The translations under genes and the position numbers were made by a program. The notes beneath the pieces are model-generated. The model did not search any database. It was given only the letters and a program-made list of their open reading frames with translations, and was not told the DNA's origin. Below are positions 24,929 through 35,908 of a DNA stretch of 57,074 nt, one piece after another (the stretch's first letter is position 1; the number at the start of each line of letters is the position of its first letter). Source of the DNA: an uncultured Eubacteriales bacterium (GTDB lineage Bacteria; Bacillota; Clostridia; Oscillospirales; Acutalibacteraceae); contig OMWP01000034.1 in NCBI GenBank assembly GCA_900314795.1, positions 7,888 to 64,961 of the forward strand, in the 5' to 3' direction.

Positions 24929-25648
24929 ATGAAACGAGTCATATCACTGTTATTAGCGCTCATCCTGACCGTCGCGATCTTTGCCGTTCCCGTCTATGCG
25001 GACAGCACTGCCGAGCAACCGGACGAAAACAGCACCCGCTATCTCAGCAAGCTCGTCGATTATATGAACAGCAAGTATCCCGGGCTTTTTTCTGAATCCA
25101 ACCGCTCCAACATCAATGTCTATCGAGAGGTTTACTACCATTATGATAACACAGATGAAATCGACTGGGCATTGATCCAAGCGGAAACTCCATACAACTT
25201 TTATGATTATTGGTTGTTCGATATCATCGGTCTTCGCGTGATCTCCGATCCCAACTGTCGCTGGCCGTTCCCATCCAGAATGGGCATCTATGACGCCAAA
25301 AAGGATACCTTTATCGACATGGGCGCCGTTGATCTTGACGCGTACGATGACTTGGAAGAGATCTATAACGAAAAGGGCTACAACGGCGGATACGGCGGTC
25401 TGTTAGGCGACATCGATAAGGATAATGCTATTACCGTTGCCGACGCTACCCTGTTGCAAAGATGCTTGATCGGAACAAAAGACTTTCCGCAATCCGATCA
25501 CATCATGTATCAATTTTATGATGATACGATTTGGTCTTATTCCGATTTCAACCGTGACAGATCGCGTGATATCCTTGATGTGACTTGCATCCAGCGTTAT
25601 CTCGCAAAGCAGCCCTATCCGATCAGCGAGTATAAAACACACGACTAA
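24929..25648 (+). CDS. Secreted type I dockerin protein of unknown function
   Basis: 239 aa. A signal peptide (1-25) is followed by a unique domain of about 130 residues with no recognised motif, rich in Tyr and Asp (VYREVYYHYDNTDE). A type I dockerin then occupies about 158-232, with GDIDKDNAITVADATLLQRCL and DFNRDRSRDILDVTCIQRYL as the two repeats. GGAGG lies 6 nt before the ATG. It is transcribed alone and is presumably attached to the same cohesin system as the other dockerin proteins here. Its activity is unknown. Confidence 0.88.
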   Translation: MKRVISLLLALILTVAIFAVPVYADSTAEQPDENSTRYLSKLVDYMNSKYPGLFSESNRSNINVYREVYYHYDNTDEIDWALIQAETPYNFYDYWLFDIIGLRVISDPNCRWPFPSRMGIYDAKKDTFIDMGAVDLDAYDDLEEIYNEKGYNGGYGGLLGDIDKDNAITVADATLLQRCLIGTKDFPQSDHIMYQFYDDTIWSYSDFNRDRSRDILDVTCIQRYLAKQPYPISEYKTHD

Positions 25649-25711: not shown

Positions 25712-26752
25712 TTAAATCATATCCGCGAGGTCGAGGATCATCCGCTCGGTCTTGTCCCAGCCAAGACACGGGTCGGTGATACTCTTGCCGTAGCAGCCGC
25801 CGTCGACCGCCTGATTACCGTCCTCGATGTAGCTCTCGATCATGAAGCCCTTGACCATGCGCTGTAATTCGGCATTATAGCGACGCGCCGCCATGACTTC
25901 CTTGACGATACGCGGCTGTTCAAAGGGGTTCTTGCCGGAATTACTATGGTTAGTATCGATGATACACGCGGGGTTCTTGAACATGCCCGAGGTGTACAGG
26001 CGCAGCAGATGCGTCATATCCTCATAATGATAGTTTGGCAGGCTCTCACCGTGCTTGTTCATATAACCGCGCAGGATCGCGTGCGCATAGGGGTTGCCGT
26101 GCGACTGCACCTCCCAGCCGCGATAGATAAAGGTATGACCGTGCTGCGCCGCGGTAATGGAATTCATCATGACCGACAGGTCGCCGCCGGTGGGGTTCTT
26201 CATGCCGACAGGGATATTCAGACCCGAGGATACCAGACGATGCTGCTGGTTCTCGACCGATCTTGCGCCGACCGCGACATAGCAGAGGATGTCATCCAGA
26301 TAGCGGTGGTTCTCGGGATAGAGCATTTCATCCGCGCAGGAAAAGCCGGTTTCCTTCAAGGCACGGATGTGCATGGAGCGGATCGCGACGATGCCCTTGA
26401 ACATATCGGGCTTCTTTTCGGGATCGGGCTGATGGAGCATGCCCTTATAGCCCGCGCCCGTGGTGCGGGGCTTGTTGGTGTAAATACGCGGGATGATGAA
26501 GATCTTGTCCTCCACCTTATCCTGCACCTTTCTCAGACGGCTGATATAATCCAGCACGCTGTCCTCTCTGTCGGCGGAGCAGGGGCCGATGATCAAAACA
26601 ATGCGGTCATCCTTGCCTGCAAAGATATCCTGCACCTGCTTCTCGCGATCGGCGACGATCCCTCTGAGCTCGTCGTCGAGGGGATACATCTTCTTGACCT
26701 CCATCGGGATGGTCAGCTTGCGCTCAAATTCCATATTCATATTCGTAATCAC
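25712..26752 (-). CDS. aroF: DAHP synthase (3-deoxy-7-phosphoheptulonate synthase), class I
   Basis: 346 aa; joins phosphoenolpyruvate and erythrose-4-phosphate, the first step of the shikimate pathway. Landmarks are IIGPCSADR, YTNKPRTTGAGYKG, GARSVENQQHR, GMKNPTGGDL and DTNHSNSGK. Compared with Escherichia coli AroF/G/H, several blocks are altered (SVENQ for TTESQ, KNPTGG for KNGTDG), which is typical of a clostridial branch. The start is GTG at 26752 with GGAAGGTG 7 nt upstream. It is the last gene of the aromatic amino acid operon, 140 bp after tyrA. The symbol is by function, and aroG would be equally fair. Confidence 0.93.
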   Translation of the reverse strand: MITNMNMEFERKLTIPMEVKKMYPLDDELRGIVADREKQVQDIFAGKDDRIVLIIGPCSADREDSVLDYISRLRKVQDKVEDKIFIIPRIYTNKPRTTGAGYKGMLHQPDPEKKPDMFKGIVAIRSMHIRALKETGFSCADEMLYPENHRYLDDILCYVAVGARSVENQQHRLVSSGLNIPVGMKNPTGGDLSVMMNSITAAQHGHTFIYRGWEVQSHGNPYAHAILRGYMNKHGESLPNYHYEDMTHLLRLYTSGMFKNPACIIDTNHSNSGKNPFEQPRIVKEVMAARRYNAELQRMVKGFMIESYIEDGNQAVDGGCYGKSITDPCLGWDKTERMILDLADMI

Positions 26753-26892: not shown

Positions 26893-27747
26893 TTATTTAT
26901 TAAAATACGCTCTTCTTTTGGTGCTCAGCCGCATCTTCTCTCTGAGCTCCTCGACCCTGCCGTCGCGGATCATATCGCGCAGGGCGGCAAACTCGCCGAG
27001 AAAGATATCCATGTACTTCAACAGCGGTTCACGGTTGAGCATAAACAGCTCGCTCCACATCAGGTCATTGATGTTGGCGATACGGGTCAGATCGCGGAAG
27101 CTGTCGCCGGTGTAATCCACCAGATGCTCGTTGTCGGAGCAGGTCATCAGCGATACCGCGATACAGTGGGTCAGCTGTGACAGATAGCCGATCATCTCGT
27201 CATGCTCCTCGGGCGAGAGCACCGAGATACGCGAGAAGCCGATGATCCTCGCCAGACCGCCGACCCAGCGGATCGACTCGGGGGTGTTCTTGTCCGTCGG
27301 CACGATGATGAAGTTCGCGTCACGAAAGATCTTGTCATCGGCATTCTCCACGCCGTAGACCTCACGACCCGCCATCGGGTGGGAGGCGATGAACTCCACA
27401 TCATCTCTGAGCATATTCTGGATATCATAGACGATACAGCTCTTCACGCCGGTCACGTCGGTGATCATCGCGCCGGGCTTGAGATAATCCTGATACTGCG
27501 CGATCCATTCCTTGAACACGTTCGGATACAGACCGAAAATCACCGCGTCGGCTGAGCCGACGATCTCGCGATCCACGGTGACAGAACCGTCGTCGATGAT
27601 GTGATGCTCGAGCGCGTAGTCGATCGCCGACTGCCGCTTTTCGATGGCGGTGATATGATAGCCGAGGCGTTTGAGCGCCTTGGCGTAGCTGCCGCCGATC
27701 AAACCGAGACCGACGATGAGTATTCTTGAATTACTGATCCATTCCAT
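26893..27747 (-). CDS. tyrA: Prephenate dehydrogenase
   Basis: 284 aa; oxidises prephenate to 4-hydroxyphenylpyruvate, the committed step to tyrosine. The NAD-binding motif GLGLIGGS lies at the N-terminus, with DVTGVK, the substrate block SHPMAGRE and the helical C-terminal dimerisation region. There is no ACT domain and no fused chorismate mutase, so feedback by tyrosine, if any, is not through an ACT domain. It overlaps the end of aroA by 17 bp, with its GAGGTG site inside aroA. Confidence 0.95.
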   Translation of the reverse strand: MEWISNSRILIVGLGLIGGSYAKALKRLGYHITAIEKRQSAIDYALEHHIIDDGSVTVDREIVGSADAVIFGLYPNVFKEWIAQYQDYLKPGAMITDVTGVKSCIVYDIQNMLRDDVEFIASHPMAGREVYGVENADDKIFRDANFIIVPTDKNTPESIRWVGGLARIIGFSRISVLSPEEHDEMIGYLSQLTHCIAVSLMTCSDNEHLVDYTGDSFRDLTRIANINDLMWSELFMLNREPLLKYMDIFLGEFAALRDMIRDGRVEELREKMRLSTKRRAYFNK

Positions 27748-29008
27748 TTATTTGCACCTCTGCACCTAAGTTTTGTAGTTTTTCAAAGAAGTCGGGGAAG
27801 CTCTTGTTCACCGCTTCTGCGCCGTCGATCATGCCGCCTGTCACGGTCAGCAGTACACTCAGCGCCATCACGATCCGATGGTCGCCGTGAGCGCTGAGCA
27901 CCTCGGTCGGCTGTCGAAGCGTACCGCCAAGGACGATCACTTCGTTCTCCCCTATCGCGACGTCGATACCGAATTTTGCCAGTTCCTGCCGCATCGCGTC
28001 CGCGCGGTCACTTTCTTTGATCCGCAGGCGGCGGGTTCCGATGAACCTCGCCCCGCCGCATAATGCCGCTACAGCGAACAATATCGGCCCCAGATCGGGA
28101 CAATCAGCGATATCGATCGGATCGATCCCGCTTTTAATATTCTTAAAAAGAATTTTATATACACTGTCACCCTGCAGGGTATCTTCCCGCAAGCCGTTGA
28201 TCTTGACCGATGAACCTGCATAGTTGAGCGCCTCAAAGAACGCCGCGTTGGAATAATCGCCCTCGACGGTCACATCCGCAGGATGGTAGTGCTGATTGCC
28301 TTTGATCCGATAGATTATCGATAGGCTCCCTTTCCTAAGGGAGCTGTCGCGGACACTTGTGTCACGCGACTGAGGGTTGCTATACTCTATTTGAATACCG
28401 AACTCTTGCAGCGCCGCAACCGTCATATCGATATACGGCTTGCTCTCCACGGGCGGAAGGATGCGGATCTCGCTGTCGCCGCCGAGCAGGGGCAGTGTGA
28501 ACAACAACCCTGAAATGAACTGGGAGCTGATATTGCCTGCTACCTCATAGACGCCGCTTCGCAAAGTTCCCTGTACAGTAAGACGATCTTCTGCTTTCTC
28601 AAAGCAGATGCCCTGATCGCGGGCGATCTTCTCATACACATCCATCGGGCGGGTCATCAGGTAGGGACTGCCCGTGAGCACCCTTGTTTCCCCGCTGAGC
28701 ATACAAAGCGGTGTGAAAAAGCGCAGCGTACTGCCGCATTCGTTGCAGCGGAGCACGGCGGTTGTTCCGATGGCTTTACGCACATCTGTCCCTTTGACAA
28801 ACGCTGTATCGCCGTCGAGCTTGATCTCAGCGCCCAACGCCCCCAGGCAATCGATCGTCGCCTTGACGTCCTCCGAGAACGCTAACCGCCTGACGATACT
28901 CTCGCCCTCGCTCAGTCCCGCGCCGATCAACAAGCGATGCGCCATGCTCTTTGACGGCGGCGCTATGACCGTGCCTTTGAGCGCGGACGGCTTGATCTCA
29001 ACCCGCAT
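27731..29008 (-). CDS. aroA: EPSP synthase (3-phosphoshikimate 1-carboxyvinyltransferase) with in-frame palindrome insert
   Basis: 425 aa; transfers the enolpyruvyl group of PEP to shikimate-3-phosphate. Markers are the N-terminal KSMAHRLLIGAGLS, the NECGSTLRFF block, ISSQFISGLLF, the DCPDLGP block and LRIKESDRADAM. A stretch of 19 codons (28324-28380 in the DNA) inside the region after FGIQIEYS reads NPQSRDTSVRDSSLRKGSL. At DNA level it is a copy of the palindromic repeat found between other genes. It lies in what should be a surface loop, and the reading frame is intact. The gene overlaps aroQ by 11 bp and tyrA by 17 bp. Confidence 0.95.
   Translation of the reverse strand: MRVEIKPSALKGTVIAPPSKSMAHRLLIGAGLSEGESIVRRLAFSEDVKATIDCLGALGAEIKLDGDTAFVKGTDVRKAIGTTAVLRCNECGSTLRFFTPLCMLSGETRVLTGSPYLMTRPMDVYEKIARDQGICFEKAEDRLTVQGTLRSGVYEVAGNISSQFISGLLFTLPLLGGDSEIRILPPVESKPYIDMTVAALQEFGIQIEYSNPQSRDTSVRDSSLRKGSLSIIYRIKGNQHYHPADVTVEGDYSNAAFFEALNYAGSSVKINGLREDTLQGDSVYKILFKNIKSGIDPIDIADCPDLGPILFAVAALCGGARFIGTRRLRIKESDRADAMRQELAKFGIDVAIGENEVIVLGGTLRQPTEVLSAHGDHRIVMALSVLLTVTGGMIDGAEAVNKSFPDFFEKLQNLGAEVQINGMDQ
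28324..28380. repeat. Palindromic repeat translated in frame within aroA
   Basis: 57 bp, exactly 19 codons. The GGCTCCCTTTCCTAAGGGAG arm, the GTCGCG...CGCGAC stem and the GAGGGTTGC end match the copy at 5865-5922 almost base for base in the conserved parts. Confidence 0.85.
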
Positions 29009-29432
29009 TGCGTTCCCTCAAAAGATCCATCGCTTCCAAGTAACCATTCACGCCGTGACCCGTGATCGTCGCAAAACACGCGAGCCGCACATAGCTGATC
29101 TGACGGAATTCTTCGCGTTTGTCCACCTCGGAAACATGCACCTCCACCGCGGGGATCGACACCGCCTTGAGCGCGTCGAGGATGGCGACGCTGGTGTGGG
29201 TATACGCGCCGGGGTTGATGACGATACCGTCGATCCTGTTATACGCTTTTTGTATGTGATCGACCAGATCGCCTTCGTGATTGCTCTGGTACAGCTCGAC
29301 GTCCACACCGATCTTCTCCGCATGATCCTCGATCAACGCACAAAGAACGGCATAGGTCGTCCTGCCGTAGATATTCGGCTCACGAATCCCGAGCATATTC
29401 AGATTTGGTCCGTTGATTACCAATATATTCAT
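28998..29432 (-). CDS. aroQ: 3-dehydroquinate dehydratase, type II
   Basis: 144 aa from the ATG at 29432, 5 nt after AAGGAG; the 16 upstream in-frame codons read through a palindromic repeat and are rejected. The dodecameric type II enzyme dehydrates 3-dehydroquinate. Markers are VINGPNLNMLGIREPNIYG with the catalytic Tyr, the QSNHEGDLVDHIQ block, INPGAYTHTSVAI and the EVHVSEVDKREEFR loop with its catalytic His. It sits between aroE-aroK and aroA, with an 11-bp overlap to aroA. Confidence 0.96.
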   Translation of the reverse strand: MNILVINGPNLNMLGIREPNIYGRTTYAVLCALIEDHAEKIGVDVELYQSNHEGDLVDHIQKAYNRIDGIVINPGAYTHTSVAILDALKAVSIPAVEVHVSEVDKREEFRQISYVRLACFATITGHGVNGYLEAMDLLRERNAG

Positions 29433-29450
29433 ATATTCTCCTTCTGCATT

Positions 29451-29500
29451 GTCATTGCGAGGATGAACACGCGTGTTCATCCCGCGGCAATCTCAACCGA
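29451..29500. repeat. TCATTGCGAGG...GCAATCTCAACCG repeat
   Basis: The copy lies between the aroE-aroK fusion and aroQ and contains the stem GAACACGCGTGTTC. Similar copies lie at 33140-33186, 37426-37502 (interrupted) and 38650-38690, in either orientation. Confidence 0.75.
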
Positions 29501-29514
29501 TTTACCGGCTGAAA

Positions 29515-30747
29515 CTATTCCCCATGGATCACTGAATCCGCGACGTCCTCGGGGTCGCAGTCGCCGTCGATGATAAAGTCGGCGGTACTCATATAAGTAT
29601 CGATGCGCTTTTTATACAAGCGCAGGAGCTTTTCCTTTTTATCCGCGAGCGGTCGGTCGTCGGTCGGGATCAGATACTCGGGCGATCGGTCGATGAAGAA
29701 GATCGCGCCGTTATGCTGCAGCGCCTCGACATTCTCGGGACGCATCACCGCGCCGCCGCCGAGGGAGATCACCTTGCCGCTGAGCGCGGATACCTCCTTG
29801 ATGACCGAGGTCTCCAGATCACGGAAGTATTGTTCGCCCTTTTCCTTGAAAATAGTCGGGATATGCCCCTCGCGCTCCACGATCAGGCGGTCGGTATCGA
29901 TCAACTCTCTGCCGAGTTGATCGGCAACGAGCTTGCCGACGGTCGACTTGCCCGAAGCGGGCATACCGCTCAGCACAATATTTCTTTTATCGAAATATAT
30001 CTCCTCATAAATCTTGTTGGTCAGCTTGACGACATCGAGCTCTCGACCGAGGAATTTCTCAGCCGCCAGCACCGCCTGCGCGACCAGCATATACAAGCCG
30101 CCCTCGGTATCGATCCCGCGTTTTTTTGCCGACAACACCAACGTCGTTTGTAGGGGGTTGTAGATCACGTCGATCACGCCGCTGAGCCGCGGGAATCTGT
30201 CAAGTTCGATCGGGCTGTCAAAGATGTTCGGGAACATCCCGCAGGGGGTCGCGTTGATGATGACGTCGGCGTCGGTATGGGCGGCATATGCGTCTTCATA
30301 GGTGATCGCGCCCTCGCACTCACGACGGCTGACACGCAAGATCTCCTTTGCGCCCATGCGATCACAGACCGCCTTTGCTGTCAGCGAAGTGCCGCCCGTG
30401 CCGAGGATCAGCACTTTTTTGTACTTCATCACCACGCCCGCGCGCTCGACCAGCGCCTTCATGCCGCCGAAATCGGTGTTGTAACCGCAGAGGATGCCGT
30501 CACGGTTGACGATGGTATTCACCGCGCCGATCGCCCGCGAGTCGGGGTCGATCTCATCGAGCAGCGGGATCACATCCTGCTTATAGGGGATGGTGACGTT
30601 GATTGCTTTAAAATTCTTTTGCAGAATAAAGTCTTGCAATTCTTCTCTTTTTAGTTCTTTCAGAGAATATTGGTAATATCCTAATTTCTCATGTATCTCT
30701 TTGGAAAAGCTGTGCGGCAGCTTCTCTCCGATCAATCCGTAGTCCAT
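29515..30747 (-). CDS. aroEK: Fused shikimate dehydrogenase - shikimate kinase
   Basis: 410 aa carrying two consecutive steps. Residues 1-250 are shikimate dehydrogenase: substrate loop SHSFSK-like (PHSFSKEIH), catalytic K56 in TIPYKQDV, D92 in NTDFGG and nucleotide-binding GTGGTSLTAK. Residues 255-410 are shikimate kinase: P-loop GMPASGKST (261-269), Asp pair in DTDRLI (284-286), the FRDLE block and GGG at about 330-332. Both halves keep their key residues, so both are probably active. Start ATG follows AAGGAT. Such fusions occur in some Firmicutes but are not the common arrangement. Confidence 0.94.
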   Translation of the reverse strand: MDYGLIGEKLPHSFSKEIHEKLGYYQYSLKELKREELQDFILQKNFKAINVTIPYKQDVIPLLDEIDPDSRAIGAVNTIVNRDGILCGYNTDFGGMKALVERAGVVMKYKKVLILGTGGTSLTAKAVCDRMGAKEILRVSRRECEGAITYEDAYAAHTDADVIINATPCGMFPNIFDSPIELDRFPRLSGVIDVIYNPLQTTLVLSAKKRGIDTEGGLYMLVAQAVLAAEKFLGRELDVVKLTNKIYEEIYFDKRNIVLSGMPASGKSTVGKLVADQLGRELIDTDRLIVEREGHIPTIFKEKGEQYFRDLETSVIKEVSALSGKVISLGGGAVMRPENVEALQHNGAIFFIDRSPEYLIPTDDRPLADKKEKLLRLYKKRIDTYMSTADFIIDGDCDPEDVADSVIHGE

Positions 30748-30823: not shown

Positions 30824-31930
30824 CTATTCACCGTCGCAACGCGACACAAGCCAATCCGTGCCATAACGCAGCGCCAGCAGATCTGCCAGCGCCAAGGCGG
30901 TCACGCTGTCCACCACCACTCTTGCGCGATGGATCACGGCGGGATCATGCCGTCCTTTTAATTCTAATACAGAATTTTCGCGCTTGATGAAATCGACCGT
31001 CTCCTGCGCCTTGAAGATGGACGGCGTCGGCTTGACGGCACAGCGAAACACGATCGGCATACCGTTGGTGATGCCGCCGTTCACACCTCCGTTGTGATTG
31101 GTCGTTGTTTTTATTTCATTTTCAGAAATATAATAACTGTCGTTGTAATCGGAGCCTCTGCCGTTCACCATTGCAAACGCGTCGCCGAACTCCACGCCCT
31201 TGACGGCGGGTACGGAGAACAGCGCATGACTGAGCACGCCCTCGACGGTATCGAACCACGGCTCACCGACGCCCGTGGGCATTCCGATGACAGCCGTCTC
31301 CAGCACGCCGCCGACGCTGTCGCCGTCCTTAGCCGCCGCTTCGATCGCCGCTTTCATCTGATCGCCTTTTGCGCTATCCAGCACGGCAAAATCGAGCGCA
31401 TTGAGCCTTGCGATATCCGTCTTGATATCGTCGAAATCTGCGTCCGCAACGCCGCCGCAGGAGCGGATATGCGTACCGATCTCGATCCCCTTATTGCGCA
31501 GGGCAGATAAAACGATCGCACCCGCTGCTACCAGCGCCGCGGTGATACGTCCCGAGAAGTGACCGCCGCCGCGATAATCCTCAAAGCCATGGTACTTTGC
31601 GTAAGCGGTATAGTCCGCATGACCGGGGCGCGCCAGTGAACGCGTCGCGGCATAATCTTTGCTGTGCTGAGCGGTGTTGGGGATCAGGATCGTGAGCGGC
31701 GTACCGGTCGTTTTGCCCTCAAAAACACCACTGACGATCTGATATTCATCCGTCTCGTGACGCTGTGTGCCGATCTTTCCGACAGGTCGGCGTTTATCGA
31801 GCTGAGCGCGGATAAAGTCATCATCGATCTTGATGCCGGGCGCTAAGCCGTCCAGCACCGCGCCGATCTGCGCGCCGTGGCTCTCGCCGAACAGTGTGAT
31901 GGCTATGCTTTTTCCGAATGTATTTTTCAT
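30824..31930 (-). CDS. aroC: Chorismate synthase
   Basis: 368 aa; the FMN-dependent last step to chorismate. Signatures are LFGESHGAQIG near the start, RPGHADYTAYAKYHG, EDYRGGGHFSGR and the GGVNGGITNGMPI block. Length is normal. It lies in the operon between aroB and the aroE-aroK fusion, with spacers filled by repeats on both sides. Confidence 0.97.
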   Translation of the reverse strand: MKNTFGKSIAITLFGESHGAQIGAVLDGLAPGIKIDDDFIRAQLDKRRPVGKIGTQRHETDEYQIVSGVFEGKTTGTPLTILIPNTAQHSKDYAATRSLARPGHADYTAYAKYHGFEDYRGGGHFSGRITAALVAAGAIVLSALRNKGIEIGTHIRSCGGVADADFDDIKTDIARLNALDFAVLDSAKGDQMKAAIEAAAKDGDSVGGVLETAVIGMPTGVGEPWFDTVEGVLSHALFSVPAVKGVEFGDAFAMVNGRGSDYNDSYYISENEIKTTTNHNGGVNGGITNGMPIVFRCAVKPTPSIFKAQETVDFIKRENSVLELKGRHDPAVIHRARVVVDSVTALALADLLALRYGTDWLVSRCDGE

Positions 31931-32002: not shown

Positions 32003-32085
32003 AGCCAATCACGGATGAATCCGCTCTTGGAGCGCTGTTGCATGGGAGTTGTAAACCAAATCACAGATTTGGACAACTCCTCAAA
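32003..32085. repeat. AGCCAATCA...CCAAATCACAGATTTGGACAAC repeat, copy 1
   Basis: An intergenic element between aroB and aroC containing the stem CCAAATC/GATTTGG. A second copy lies at 34446-34546 between the leader terminator and pheA. The core CAAATCACAGATTTGGACAA is identical in both. Confidence 0.7.
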
Positions 32086-32105: not shown

Positions 32106-33119
32106 TTATTTTGTGATCTTTTCGATCATCGGGTACAATTCCTTGAACCGCACCTTGTTCATCTCATATTTGCCGGGCGCGGGGACGGTGATGACTGTCA
32201 CATATTCTCCCTCGCCCTTTTTGTCGTGGGTCATCGCTTCATAAATCTCATCGGCGCTCAGATCGACCGCCGTCGGGAGCCGCAGACTCTCCAAGATCCG
32301 GATCAACCGCGGACGCAAATCGTCGCTGATCATCGGGATCATCCCGATTGCGACACACTCGCCGTGGTACAGTCCGTGGCGCTCCTCATACGCCTCAATG
32401 CCGTGTCCGATGGTATGACCGAAGTTGAGGATCTTTCTGAGCCCCTGCTCCTTTTCATCCTGCTCCACGACGGTCTTTTTGATCATCAAGGAGCGTGTGA
32501 TGATCTCGTCCATATTCTCGTTTATATTTCTTTTTTCGAATAATTCAAACAACTCCGCATCGGAGGTCAAGCCCATTTTCAGCGCCTCGGCTAATCCCTC
32601 GCTGATCAGTCGGCTGTCCAGTGTCGCGAGCAGATCGAGATCGACCAGCACCTTCTTCGGCTGATAGAACGCGCCGACGATGTTTTTGATGCCGTCCATA
32701 TTCACCGCCGTTTTGCCGCCGATGGAGGAATCCACCTGACTGAGCACCGTTGTCGGGATGTTGTAGAAATCGACGCCGCGCATATAGCTTGCCGCGACAA
32801 AGCCCGCCAGATCGCCGACTACGCCGCCGCCGACCGCGACGACCGCGTCCTTACGCGAAAAGCCCTCTTTGAGCATCCGCGAGAGGATCGCCGAGAATGT
32901 CGCAATACTCTTGCTGTCCTCACCCTGCGGCACGGTCACGATGATACCGTCCTTTGCCATAGCCGCCACCGTCTGCGCGTACTGCTTCGGCACGCCGTCA
33001 TCGGTCACGACCAACACCTTGCGGTCGAGGTCGAGGTATTCTCCTGCTTTTTGCAGAGCGCCGCGCTCGATCACGATATCGTAGCTGTCCGCGCCCAGAT
33101 CCATATGTAAAACTTTCAT
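32106..33119 (-). CDS. aroB: 3-dehydroquinate synthase
   Basis: 337 aa from the ATG at 33119 (AGGATG upstream); the 11 earlier codons come from the adjoining repeat. The NAD- and metal-dependent enzyme cyclises DAHP. Markers are the PQGEDSKS loop, GGGVVGDLAGFVAASYMRG, IPTTVLSQVDSSIGGKTAVN, a metal-binding Glu in EGLAEALKMG and the His of NFGHTIGHGIE. It is second in the operon, after pheA. Confidence 0.96.
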   Translation of the reverse strand: MKVLHMDLGADSYDIVIERGALQKAGEYLDLDRKVLVVTDDGVPKQYAQTVAAMAKDGIIVTVPQGEDSKSIATFSAILSRMLKEGFSRKDAVVAVGGGVVGDLAGFVAASYMRGVDFYNIPTTVLSQVDSSIGGKTAVNMDGIKNIVGAFYQPKKVLVDLDLLATLDSRLISEGLAEALKMGLTSDAELFELFEKRNINENMDEIITRSLMIKKTVVEQDEKEQGLRKILNFGHTIGHGIEAYEERHGLYHGECVAIGMIPMISDDLRPRLIRILESLRLPTAVDLSADEIYEAMTHDKKGEGEYVTVITVPAPGKYEMNKVRFKELYPMIEKITK

Positions 33120-33139
33120 TGGAATCATCCTATCATCAG

Positions 33140-33186
33140 TTGAGATTGCCACGGGCTGACACGCGTGTCGAGCCCTCGCAATGACA
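33140..33186. repeat. GTTGAGATTGCC...CTCGCAATGAC repeat between pheA and aroB
   Basis: Same family as 29451-29500, in the opposite orientation, with an internal GACACGCGTGTC palindrome. Confidence 0.75.
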
Positions 33187-33191
33187 AATTG

Positions 33192-34295
33192 TTAATCCTC
33201 TTGTAAAATCACTTCGTCAAAGAAATGTCCGACCACCTTGAGCATATCGCAGTGCAGTCCGAGGTGCCGCAGCATATCGGCGCCGTTCTGCCCCGTTTCG
33301 TCACCCTCTGCCTCAATGTAGAAGTAATACTCCCACGCCAGATCCTTCATCGGGCGTGAACGCAGGGCGCGCATATTGAAGCCGTAGGAGCTCAATACAT
33401 TCAGCGCCTGAGCCAGTGCGCCCGCCTCATTCTTAACAGTGAACATCAGCATGAAGCGGCTGTCGCCCGAGGTGTTCACCGTTTTATTCTCTACGCGTGA
33501 GAACACAGCGAATCGGGTGGAATTCAACGCGCTCTCGTTGATGTCATGGTCGAGCTGTTCGAGACCGTACAGCCGTGCTGTCTCAGCGGACGCGATCGCC
33601 GCGATACTCTTGTCACAAGCGTCCTTGACTGCCTTCGCCGCCTTTGCGGTGTTGGCATACTCCGTTGTTTCATAGCCGTGCTCACGGATATACTCCGCAC
33701 ACTGCGCCAATGCCTGTGGATGGCTGACGACCGTTTTGATATCCTTGATACTCGCTCCCGGAACCCCCAACAGATGGTGGGTGATCCTGAGGGTGTAGAG
33801 TCCGTTGACATAGAGCGACCCTTGGAACATCAGATCCATCACCTGACCGACCTCGCCGGCATAGCTGTTCTCGATCGGCAGCACACAGCAGTCGCATTCT
33901 CCCCTCTCCACCGCCTCATACGCGGCTCTGAAATCACGGTAAGAGATCAGCTTGCCGTAGGGGAAGATCTGCTTGGCGGCGATGTTGGCATAAGCGCCCT
34001 CGATGCCGCTGTAGGCGACCTTCACGCCGCTGATGATATGCTCCTGATACTGCTTGGAAACCGCCATCTCGTCCTGCAAAAACCGCACATAATACGAGCG
34101 GATGTCGGGGTCCTTGATCAAGGCGGCGTTTTTCTCGATCACTGCCTGCTCACGCTTTGCGTCATAGATCTGCAAGCCGCGTTCCTTCTTATACTCGGCG
34201 ATCACCTTCGCCGCCTGCATACGGCGTTCAAACAGCGCCGCCATCTCTTTGTCGACCTCATTGATCTGCAGCCGCGCCTCCTGTAGCTTATCCAT
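33192..34295 (-). CDS. pheA: Bifunctional chorismate mutase / prephenate dehydratase (P-protein)
   Basis: 367 aa; takes chorismate to prephenate and on to phenylpyruvate. Residues 1-85 form an AroQ-type mutase helix bundle (INEVDKEMAALFERRM). Residues 92-270 form the dehydratase, with YSGIEGAYA, IENSYAGEV and NSTRFAVFSR. Residues 280-360 are an ACT domain with GALAQALN and an RSRP motif in the place of the usual ESRP Phe-binding motif. The ACT domain suggests feedback by phenylalanine, and the gene is also the first behind a Phe/Tyr-rich leader. GGAAGGTG precedes the ATG. Confidence 0.96.
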   Translation of the reverse strand: MDKLQEARLQINEVDKEMAALFERRMQAAKVIAEYKKERGLQIYDAKREQAVIEKNAALIKDPDIRSYYVRFLQDEMAVSKQYQEHIISGVKVAYSGIEGAYANIAAKQIFPYGKLISYRDFRAAYEAVERGECDCCVLPIENSYAGEVGQVMDLMFQGSLYVNGLYTLRITHHLLGVPGASIKDIKTVVSHPQALAQCAEYIREHGYETTEYANTAKAAKAVKDACDKSIAAIASAETARLYGLEQLDHDINESALNSTRFAVFSRVENKTVNTSGDSRFMLMFTVKNEAGALAQALNVLSSYGFNMRALRSRPMKDLAWEYYFYIEAEGDETGQNGADMLRHLGLHCDMLKVVGHFFDEVILQED

Positions 34296-34445
34296 CCTGT
34301 CACCTTCCGAAATATTTCATACGTTTATTGTAGGGTACGGCGCTTGCGACGTACCACTTGATTTCCTGGTGTGAGCATTGCCTTCCCATAATTCTTCATT
34401 CTTCAATTTTAAGTCTTTCGATTTCGGTGTTTCGCAGTAGCTCTC

Positions 34446-34546
34446 AGCCAATCATCGTTCGCCTGTCGCAAGCGACAGCTCCGATTCTTGGGAGAGCCTT
34501 GCGTGGATGTTGTAACCCAAATCACAGATTTGGACAACACCTCAAA
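34446..34546. repeat. AGCCAATCA...CCAAATCACAGATTTGGACAAC repeat, copy 2
   Basis: The partner of 32003-32085. It lies in the untranslated leader between the attenuator terminator and pheA, and also carries a GTCGC/GCGAC stem. The rest of 34296-34445 shows no gene. Confidence 0.65.
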
Positions 34547-34577
34547 AAAGCGGCTCTGCCCGAAAACAGAACCGCTT
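34544..34577 (-). terminator. Leader terminator (attenuator) of the aromatic operon
   Basis: On the minus strand an 11-bp stem AAGCGGTTCTG/CAGAGCCGCTT (one G-U pair) with an 8-nt loop is followed by TTTTTT. It begins 37 nt after the leader-peptide stop and lies 249 bp before pheA. The segment CTGCTCGAA (34605-34613), just after the leader stop, can pair with TTCGGGCAG (34556-34564) in the loop and 3' arm, which would give a competing antiterminator. Confidence 0.85.
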
Positions 34578-34614
34578 ACCATTCATCTAAAGCACCTGTT
34601 ACCGTTCGAGCAGC

Positions 34615-34710
34615 TTACTCATTCTTTGCAAAGCAATAAAAGCCCGCATAAAAGCGCGCGTAGGTAAAGGTAAAGTAGTTATTGAATTTTTCGGTGTTAT
34701 GAACAGTCAT
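34615..34710 (-). CDS. Phe/Tyr-rich leader peptide of the aromatic amino acid operon
   Basis: 31 codons, ATG at 34710, TAA at 34615-34617. AAGGAG (34719-34724) stands 8 nt upstream, an ideal ribosome-binding site. Ten of 31 residues are Phe (6) or Tyr (4), packed in the runs FNNYFTFTY, RFYAGFY and CFAKNE, so ribosome progress depends on charged tRNA-Phe and tRNA-Tyr. It lies between a near-consensus promoter (34796-34824) and an intrinsic terminator (34544-34577), with pheA next. This is the layout of transcription attenuation as in the enterobacterial pheL-pheA leader. No T-box features were found. The function is inferred from layout and composition. Confidence 0.85.
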   Translation of the reverse strand: MTVHNTEKFNNYFTFTYARFYAGFYCFAKNE

Positions 34711-34726
34711 CACAATAACTCCTTAA

Positions 34727-34782
34727 GTCTCCCTTAAAAAGGAAGGTGGATCGGCTCTCCGAGCCGACTCGGAGGGTTCAAC
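34727..34782. repeat. Palindromic repeat in the 5' leader of the aromatic operon
   Basis: A copy of the CTCCCTT...GGAGGGTT family with a perfect inner stem TCGGCTC/GAGCCGA. It lies between the promoter and the leader peptide, so it is transcribed. Confidence 0.7.
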
Positions 34783-34795
34783 CTTAACACGGTTG

Positions 34796-34824
34796 ATGAT
34801 AACACATTAAAGCGCAAAAGTCAA
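34796..34824 (-). promoter_or_regulatory. Promoter of the aromatic amino acid operon
   Basis: Read on the minus strand: TTGACT (34819-34824), a 17-bp spacer and TATCAT (34796-34801). It is the best promoter match near the operon. Confidence 0.8.
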
Positions 34825-34857
34825 TAATCTACCGTTATTTTTTTGACATGAAAAGGA

Positions 34858-34887
34858 AAGGCGCCGCAGCCACAGCCGCAGCGCCTT
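34858..34887 (-). terminator. Terminator of the 332-aa dockerin protein gene
   Basis: The stem AAGGCGC/GCGCCTT with a GC-rich inner part is followed on the minus strand by TCCTTTTC. It lies 22 bp after the stop and just upstream of the aro promoter. Confidence 0.6.
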
Positions 34888-34909
34888 ATAAGGGGATGAA
34901 AAAATGGGG

Positions 34910-35908
34910 TTATTCGATTGTATAAATACCGGCTTGGTTTCTCTGGATCAAAGTCGCGTCGATGACATTGGCTTCACTATCGTCGTTCACATCCGCGAGC
35001 GGTTGAAAGAAAGAGGTAGTAGCGATATTCGCCTCATGCCGCTGGATCATGGTCGCGTCAACAATCGTACACTCCCCGTCACCATCCGCGTCACCTTTGA
35101 TATAGCGGGTCAAAAGCGGCAGAACATAATCGCCCTTAAAAGAAGATCCGGCGAGCTCTTCGAGCATATCGTCTGTCATCAACCCCGCGTCATATGCCTC
35201 TTTGAAGCTGTACAGATGATCGTTCACAAAGAGAAACGGCTCAGGGTGGGAACATTCGAGCAACCAGTCGCCGATGCGCTCCTCGATCATGACATCGATA
35301 TATCCCAAATTCCTCACATAAAAGTGAACCGCATAAGCGTCCGAATCACAGAACTGATAATAATCTCTGAGATTGATATCTCTCGCGGTGATGGAATGAC
35401 GCGGGTCATAATACCGTTCATTCGCAGCGGGAGCGATCATTTCGGTGAGTGCCGTAGGCGTACTGTATGAGCCATACGTATCCATATCCTTTACGATATC
35501 CAACTGTGCCAACTTGGGAACATTATCCTTCGATACTTCCGCGATGATAAACTCTGCGGCATCGGTCTGACAGATGACCTTATATAACAAATCGGCGTTG
35601 TCATCGATAAAACCTTGAACATATGCACCGATGATCGCCGACATTTCCTTGCGGTAGTACATCAGGTGCTCCTGCTGATTCGTCCATGTATATTTCTGAC
35701 TGATGATCTCCTCAACATGCTGTGCCTCGGGACAATTTCTCAAAAAGATATATACCTGGATCATAACGTCGGTAGGACTGTTGATCTCTTGGATCAACGC
35801 AGGGGTCAGCTTCTTCAAATAGTCATCATTGCTTTCAGCCGACGCCGCTGTGATGCCGCAACTGAACAGCATGATCAACACTAAACATAATGCCACTGCT
35901 TTTTTCAT
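34910..35908 (-). CDS. Secreted type I dockerin protein of unknown function
   Basis: 332 aa. A signal peptide (1-24) is followed by about 240 residues of unrecognised, Asp/Tyr-rich sequence. It starts LKKLTPALIQEINS and contains a stretch with Cys, YTWTNQQEHLMYYRKEM. A type I dockerin occupies about 270-330: DADGDGECTIVDATMIQRHEAN, then DVNDDSEANVIDATLIQRNQAG. GGAGG lies 6 nt before the ATG. It is transcribed alone. The dockerin implies display on a cohesin scaffold, and the enzymatic or binding role cannot be named. Confidence 0.88.
   Translation of the reverse strand: MKKAVALCLVLIMLFSCGITAASAESNDDYLKKLTPALIQEINSPTDVMIQVYIFLRNCPEAQHVEEIISQKYTWTNQQEHLMYYRKEMSAIIGAYVQGFIDDNADLLYKVICQTDAAEFIIAEVSKDNVPKLAQLDIVKDMDTYGSYSTPTALTEMIAPAANERYYDPRHSITARDINLRDYYQFCDSDAYAVHFYVRNLGYIDVMIEERIGDWLLECSHPEPFLFVNDHLYSFKEAYDAGLMTDDMLEELAGSSFKGDYVLPLLTRYIKGDADGDGECTIVDATMIQRHEANIATTSFFQPLADVNDDSEANVIDATLIQRNQAGIYTIE

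Follow-up and report, generated by a model that had tools for sequence, protein, structure and literature searches.

In Escherichia coli, the pheL-pheA and trpL leaders encode peptides rich in the amino acids that are the end products of the downstream pathway, and their RNA can adopt the alternative pairings 1:2, 2:3 and 3:4. In Firmicutes, passages of two papers place attenuators with a histidine leader peptide in Peptostreptococcaceae, Erysipelotrichales and the B. cereus group (PMC9413887, PMC2965389), and the ilv-leu operon of S. aureus is presented in part of PMC5794164 with a Leu-rich attenuator peptide, a terminator, an antiterminator and genetic support. In Acholeplasma, the motif uORFC-13-1 upstream of aroF, encoding at least one Phe, was proposed as a Phe leader in the relevant passage of PMC8632094. 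A 2010 survey by Lopatovskaya and colleagues, cited in a passage of PMC4833913, may hold related predictions. The preliminary description of our locus had called a leader-peptide attenuator unusual in Firmicutes; this needs tempering, as the published histidine, leucine and proposed phenylalanine leaders mean that the kind of system is already known. In the open-licence papers searched, no description was found of a Phe/Tyr leader-peptide attenuator in these Clostridia, and the portion of PMC8040213 covered, supplements aside, held no passage matching the searched subject.

Judged from its sequence and from comparison with relatives, the leader analysed here, in a clostridium of gut or rumen type, is very probably a transcription attenuator that responds to Phe and Tyr through a translating ribosome and stands in front of an aro operon. 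It lies on the minus strand of the window (the whole stretch of 57,074 nucleotides that was analysed). The proposed gene order pheA-aroB-aroC-aroEK-aroQ-aroA-tyrA-aroF was borne out by model matches, several of which (e.g. pheA, aroE, aroA and tyrA) were below the curated cut-offs of the models. The operon consists, all on the minus strand, of pheA (chorismate mutase-prephenate dehydratase, 33192-34295), aroB (32106-33152), aroC (30824-31930), an aroE-aroK fusion (29515-30747), aroQ (type II dehydroquinase, start codon uncertain, 28998-29480), aroA (27731-29008), tyrA (prephenate dehydrogenase, 26893-27747) and an aroF-type DAHP synthase gene (25712-26752), and an intrinsic terminator precedes the first structural gene. 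It is flanked by secreted-looking proteins with repeats that appear dockerin-like by eye (34910-35908 and 24929-25648), for which NCBIfam gave no match. Palindrome-rich inserts are located between the promoter and the ribosome-binding site (34735-34790) and between the terminator and pheA (34297-34543). These are absent or different in most relatives, and parts of them recur elsewhere in the genome, including one 45-bp piece that is also present at 32038-32082, between aroB and aroC.

The leader ORF was found as previously noted: it runs from an ATG at 34710 to 34615 on the minus strand, has 31 codons plus a stop, 10 of them for Phe or Tyr (peptide MTVHNTEKFNNYFTFTYARFYAGFYCFAKNE), and is preceded by the ribosome-binding site AAGGAG (34719-34724). 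Its Phe+Tyr content was the highest among 101 RBS-preceded ORFs of 15-60 codons in the window, counted on both strands with alternative starts taken apart, so that the leader itself was included twice, from two starts. The sequence AAGG[AG]G stands ahead of the leader start in 18/18 sequences. For comparison of the peptides, frames were found by patterns requiring Arg and Gly, which 37 of 39 rows passed; L229 and L233 were dropped from the 37 peptides before counting, and two 76-residue readings (L230 and L231) were left out of the 31 distinct peptides. L229 has the leader, with a core that is one codon shorter. At each of seven positions flanking the Arg, 27-31 of the 31 distinct peptides carry an aromatic residue (Phe, Tyr or Trp), the changes being mostly exchanges between Phe and Tyr, while the N-terminal part drifts among relatives. 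This resembles the pattern that had been put forward as a check, with Phe/Tyr codons conserved and the others drifting. Homologous leaders without the ORF or its Phe/Tyr enrichment had been named as a refuting case, and the homologous leaders keep both. Leaders from several families share a core of Arg-aromatic-aromatic-Ala-Gly; 31/31 peptides have the Arg and the Gly, partly by construction, since the search and alignment patterns required them.

Folding of leader parts gave three alternatives, 1:2, 2:3 and 3:4. Segment 1 (GCGCTTTTATGCGGGC, 34642-34657, minus strand), for which the evidence is folding and pair counts, lies within the codons Arg-Phe-Tyr-Ala-Gly and can pair with segment 2. Based on folding and covariation, segment 2 (CTGCTCGAA-CGGT-AACAG-GT-GCTT, 34590-34613, minus strand) pairs with either segment 1 or segment 3, and segment 3 (AAGCGGTTCTGTTTTCGGGCAG, 34556-34577, minus strand) pairs with segment 2, forming the antiterminator, or through its 5' part with segment 4. 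The 3:4 pairing is the intrinsic terminator at 34544-34577 (minus strand), recognised from sequence and folding, with a hairpin at 34577-34548, a T run at 34549-34544 and a folding energy of -19.0 kcal/mol on its own; its 11-bp stem and six U were located where they had been reported. The antiterminator had been drawn as a 9-nt pairing. Its CTGCTCGAA segment at 34613-34605 was exact, but nine pairs were too few: the full 2:3 helix consists of CTGCTCGAA/TTCGGGCAG, AACAG/CTGTT and GCTT/AAGC, 9+5+4 = 18 pairs. This helix takes 7 of the 11 nucleotides of the 5' arm of the terminator and disrupts 7/11 pairs, not the three stated before, and so mutual exclusion is fuller than had been held and the earlier doubt over a 3-pair overlap dissolves. 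Segment 1 (34657-34642), a competing segment that was absent from the preliminary description, completes the layout of a classical 1-2-3-4 attenuator. As it lies in the Arg-Phe-Tyr-Ala-Gly codons, its pairing may also explain why these codons are nearly invariant.

Compensatory changes support the antiterminator, as far as alignments tested against shuffles that ignore the relatedness of the sequences can tell, with three of five measures beyond all shuffles. Across 17 distinct rows, 94.1% of the 2:3 cells were paired, compared with 37-52% when slid; covariation was 0.112 against 0.068 in shuffled alignments (0/500) and 6 cells had changed on both sides (0/500). The number of pairs changed on both sides (2; 152/500 shuffles) and of pair types (49/500) were not significant in these rows. 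The same held for 36 distinct rows whose alignment model lacked 2:3, in which 87.5% of the cells were paired (31-50% when slid), 18 cells had changed on both sides against a shuffle mean of 6.2 (0/500) and covariation was 0.163 against 0.125 (0/500), with pairs changed on both sides (202/500) and pair types (300/500) again not significant. Examples include U-A for C-G at one pair in five sequences, and G-C for A-U at another in two. For 1:2 together with 3:4, the narrow alignment A2 contained zero compensatory changes, and a wide alignment fitted to that structure had 92.8% of cells paired and 10 pairs changed on both sides (0/500). The suggestion that both stems would show compensatory changes is thus supported for 2:3, and for 1:2 and 3:4 only in the alignment that had been fitted to them.

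The proposed switch could work as follows. RNA polymerase would start at the promoter at 34796-34824 and a ribosome would load on the leader. Under a shortage of charged tRNA-Phe or tRNA-Tyr, the ribosome would stall in the cluster of Phe/Tyr codons, covering segment 1 and leaving segment 2 free; 2:3 would then form ahead of the synthesis of segment 4, and transcription would continue into the operon. When both tRNAs are charged, the ribosome would reach the stop codon with its footprint over the CTGCTCGAA part of segment 2; with segment 2 masked, segment 3 would pair with segment 4 and transcription would stop near 34544. Ribosome coupling, tRNA sensing, the kinetic order and the amount of regulation are the parts of this scheme that we infer.

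Folding with and without a ribosome, as had been suggested, agreed with the switch in truncated RNA and less so in the full RNA, which at equilibrium is mostly terminator. We assumed a footprint extending 13 nt past the A site, folded 18 sequences and took upstream pairing of segment 3 as 2:3. In RNA up to segment 3, a ribosome stalled with one of codons -6 to +11 (numbered around the Ala-Arg core) in its A site left segment 3 paired upstream with a mean probability of 0.92-0.95, compared with 0.20-0.64 for a ribosome at the stop codon. Once the terminator was complete, a ribosome at the stop gave a terminator probability of 0.99-1.00 in 18/18 sequences. Equilibrium folding with the full terminator was of little help as a test of the switch, as the terminator dominates, and truncated-RNA folding was therefore added: with segment 4 present, most of the 18 sequences favoured the terminator for the majority of stall positions, and in L040, L045 and L047 its probability was 0.99-1.00 whatever the stalled codon. 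The switch must therefore be kinetic, with 2:3 formed before segment 4 is transcribed, and in classical attenuators the antiterminator is likewise assumed to form before that point. Without a ribosome, segment 3 of RNA lacking segment 4 paired upstream with a probability of 0.46-0.98; the 1:2 state is thus not clearly favoured, making segment 1 the least secure part of the layout. The stop codon is placed so that, given the assumed footprint, a terminating ribosome would mask segment 2, and in 10/37 leaders the ORF extends through segment 2, which would put the terminating ribosome on it.

A PheA scan of genome contigs gave 45 loci, 19 of them with PheA at least 80% identical, mostly from MAGs named Ruminococcus sp., Clostridiales or Clostridia. 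After L038 and L041 had been left out, as their upstream regions are missing, a homologous leader was present before pheA in 17/17 assessable relatives, followed by pheA-aroB-aroC in 16 (the L067 locus stops after pheA). A covariance model of 18 leaders (R1), the E-values of which are rough, matched 33 of 161 genus genomes at E 0.01 or better, leaving 128 without a match; 30 of the 33 reached 1e-15 or better, each at a single strong place, and the other three 0.002-0.005. The distance from the end of the model to pheA is 19-251 nt within the genus. In 36 genus genomes (G000-G035), most PheA proteins are only 33-38% identical, and Rfam gave nothing in L011-L030, 20 loci that have PheA of this kind and one of which comes from another family of the order. 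Another 16 pheA loci are more distant: a leader lies directly upstream in one (L010), a coding gene is directly upstream of pheA in nine (L006, L008, L009, L051, L053, L054, L056, L058 and L066) and no convincing leader was seen upstream of pheA in six (L007, L052, L055, L064, L065 and L068). Homologous aro operons that appear to have no recognisable leader tell against the attenuator reading, as do the 128 genus genomes without an R1 match.

The sigma-70-like promoter TTGACT-N17-TATCAT was found where it had been placed, on the minus strand at 34824-34796. Exactly one match to TTGA[CT]T-N17-TAT..T is present 90-260 nt 5' of the terminator in 30/30 genus loci, with the same outcome whether or not CTTTA was required. 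Mean column identity over 29 distinct loci was 0.92 for the 17-bp spacer, 0.99 for the -35 box and 0.89 for the -10 box, and the 29 bp on either side had 0.54 and 0.50. A spacer that is about as conserved as the -10 box suggests a repressor site, and it is a candidate operator overlapping the promoter. When 39 genomes were searched with the spacer, 3 pheA promoters and 5 other places were found, the latter with two mismatches each. One of the five is the promoter of a TrpR-family (HisR/YerC-like) gene in G019, the element of which, GACTTTAGCACTTTAATGTG, is 19/20 identical to the pheA promoter of L045, having been found by searching with the pheA spacer; the remaining four precede genes without an evident link by eye. 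The operator of the HisR/TrpR family is given, in the passage concerned of PMC9413887, as a 20-bp palindrome, cacTTTAnnnnnnTAAAgtg. Under a matrix of hisR-promoter sites, the promoter site in the window scored 7.7, compared with 27.8-32.8 for the sites that built the matrix, and ranked 17 among 114110 20-mers counted on both strands of the window, while the pheA promoter of L046 (GACTTTATCGCGGTAAAGTG) scored 28.4. A TrpR-family repressor that may also act at the pheA promoter is a candidate reading and a lead. A second TrpR-family gene of the genome under study (C27) gave no hint at the repressor, as it adjoins ORFs that look rpoD-like and methyltransferase-like by eye. In two homologous aro operons without a leader (L055 and L007), a GTTAACA-n-TGTTAAC palindrome was seen by eye 3' of the promoter, and it looks as if a repressor had taken the place of the attenuator.

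The conserved spacer could mean that the terminator is constitutive and that the operon is controlled mainly by a repressor at the promoter, with the leader merely tuning basal readthrough. The gap in conservation between the spacer and its flanks and the near identity of the G019 promoter would fit this explanation, which gives no reason to keep mutually exclusive structures, compensatory changes and Phe/Tyr codons, and the leader persists where promoter spacers differ (L227 and L239); we consider it improbable. It is more improbable still that a TnaC-like nascent-peptide arrest is at work, in which the leader peptide with its conserved Arg and Gly, and not slow decoding, halts the ribosome in response to free Phe or Tyr. 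The recurrence of the Arg-aromatic-aromatic-Ala-Gly core across several families, partly by construction, is what such an arrest would call for, but segment 1 encodes these residues, and its pairing as RNA can account for their conservation. Phe/Tyr-rich leaders without the motif also exist, before pheA in L010 (peptide MFFESCYFYFYFTRRCPYSF, 10/20 Phe/Tyr, with a PheA of 52% identity) and L048, and before transporter genes in L240 and L265, the last being less rich (7/50). Of the two leaders in L239, one has Cys in place of Arg and in the second the motif is interrupted by an additional codon. The existence of leaders without the Arg/Gly motif speaks for decoding of Phe/Tyr codons rather than for an arrest peptide.

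An alternative in which the signal is sensed by a T-box or some other aptamer, and the short ORF plays no part, has next to no likelihood in our view and is largely refuted, even though the genome does use T-boxes: eight matches were found at E 0.001 or better, two of them above the cut-off. By Pfam they precede pheS, trpE, a LeuA-type synthase gene, alaS and thrS; the genes behind the others were recognised by eye as one for a serine acetyltransferase and two starting with an XRE-like domain. No Rfam family (4227 searched, with the T-box, RF00230, among them) reached its gathering score in the window, and the best match of any family in 34250-34900 was a microRNA model at E 0.29; the refuting case of an aptamer in the leader, raised beforehand, thus did not arise. 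Nothing was found with Rfam in 10 related loci except a neighbouring T-box in L239. The features that are conserved are an ORF with Phe/Tyr codons and the attenuator stems, and the Phe/Tyr operon is an exception within a T-box-using genome. A T-box in the leader or in the interval from the terminator to pheA was also considered and rejected: a stretch that looked T-box-like by eye (GTGGTACGTCGCAAGCGCCGTACCCT) was matched by no Rfam model and is part of sequence that differs among relatives. Elsewhere, the palindrome CGCTTTATTGACTTAAAGTG was observed at G000 C28:54923 (L188), before a gene that is ProB-like by eye; it is exact in G012 and G071 and has one mismatch in G004, G093 and G164.

Attenuators related to this one are present in further families and in one other order as well. 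In a sample drawn from the order (394 genomes), 13 had an R1 match at E 0.01 or better. The six weakest R1 matches (L233-L238) were not counted; L233, the sole one inspected, was without the leader core and was kept in alignment A3, from which a second model (R2, 39 rows including seven outside matches) was built. R2 matched 44 of the same 394 genomes, 8 (including G000) at 4.2e-9 or better, of which only G261 was not in the alignment of R2 itself. In 391 genomes of the class it matched 21, the only strong one beside G000 being G590, with two tandem copies (9.3e-20 and 3.3e-13). Weak covariance matches were unreliable, as L253, L256, L257 and L264 had no leader among nine loci inspected. Inspection placed leaders before pheA in L228 and L232, and in L227 with a DUF554 gene in between. 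Leaders also precede genes for PF04392 ABC substrate-binding proteins (L229, L252, L255, L265 and L240), while L230 and L231 were placed before substrate-binding genes by sequence likeness only; leaders in this position predict an aromatic substrate for the transporters. In L239, two tandem Phe/Tyr leader attenuators (1501-1880) are located before the gene of an AMP-binding enzyme that resembles phenylacetate-CoA ligase by eye, and the T-box is on the opposite strand, about 180 bp upstream of them. Phe-rich short ORFs with strong terminators were also seen before a PheA-like gene in two Treponema MAGs (L062 and L063) and a Spirochaetia MAG (L050).

From these matches, the leader looks like a member of one homologous family, as yet absent from Rfam, that is found in several taxonomic families and in two or more orders of the class. 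A further possibility, which we would hold only tentatively and with more doubt than belief, is that homologous Phe/Tyr attenuators form a class-wide family not described so far, which has been passed from gene to gene (pheA operons, PF04392 transporter genes and an aryl-CoA-ligase-like gene with tandem copies), and that in this genus it is combined with a TrpR-family repressor site in the promoter spacer, allowing the operon to read both free amino acid and tRNA charging. The conserved motif makes annotation easy, and PF04392 transporters and other genes that follow such a leader are predicted from it to be specific for Phe/Tyr. With T-boxes for pheS and trpE and a leader peptide for Phe/Tyr synthesis in one genome, the choice of sensor could be studied within one cell.

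To summarise, aromatic amino acids would join the few leader-peptide attenuators known in Firmicutes. The leader resembles the E. coli attenuators in its peptide rich in end-product amino acids and in the alternatives 1:2, 2:3 and 3:4, placed upstream of pheA as in pheL-pheA, and is unlike pheL-pheA and trpL in preceding a whole shikimate-Phe-Tyr operon, in using Phe and Tyr codons together and in belonging to another bacterial class. As uORFC-13-1 is described in the Acholeplasma passage of PMC8632094, both have a uORF with Phe codons and a terminator before a shikimate gene, and that description sets the two apart by host group and gene. The histidine attenuators, compared by their description in parts of PMC9413887 and PMC2965389, share the proposed mechanism and occur in Firmicutes, some of which also use T-boxes, whereas they concern histidine, his genes and runs of His codons. 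With S. aureus ilv-leu, as outlined in the section concerned of PMC5794164, the leader shares a leader peptide, a terminator and an antiterminator in a Firmicute, and it differs from that system in that the latter serves Leu and a branched-chain operon. Compared with all of these, the mechanism is already known, and its carrier and targets are apparently new.
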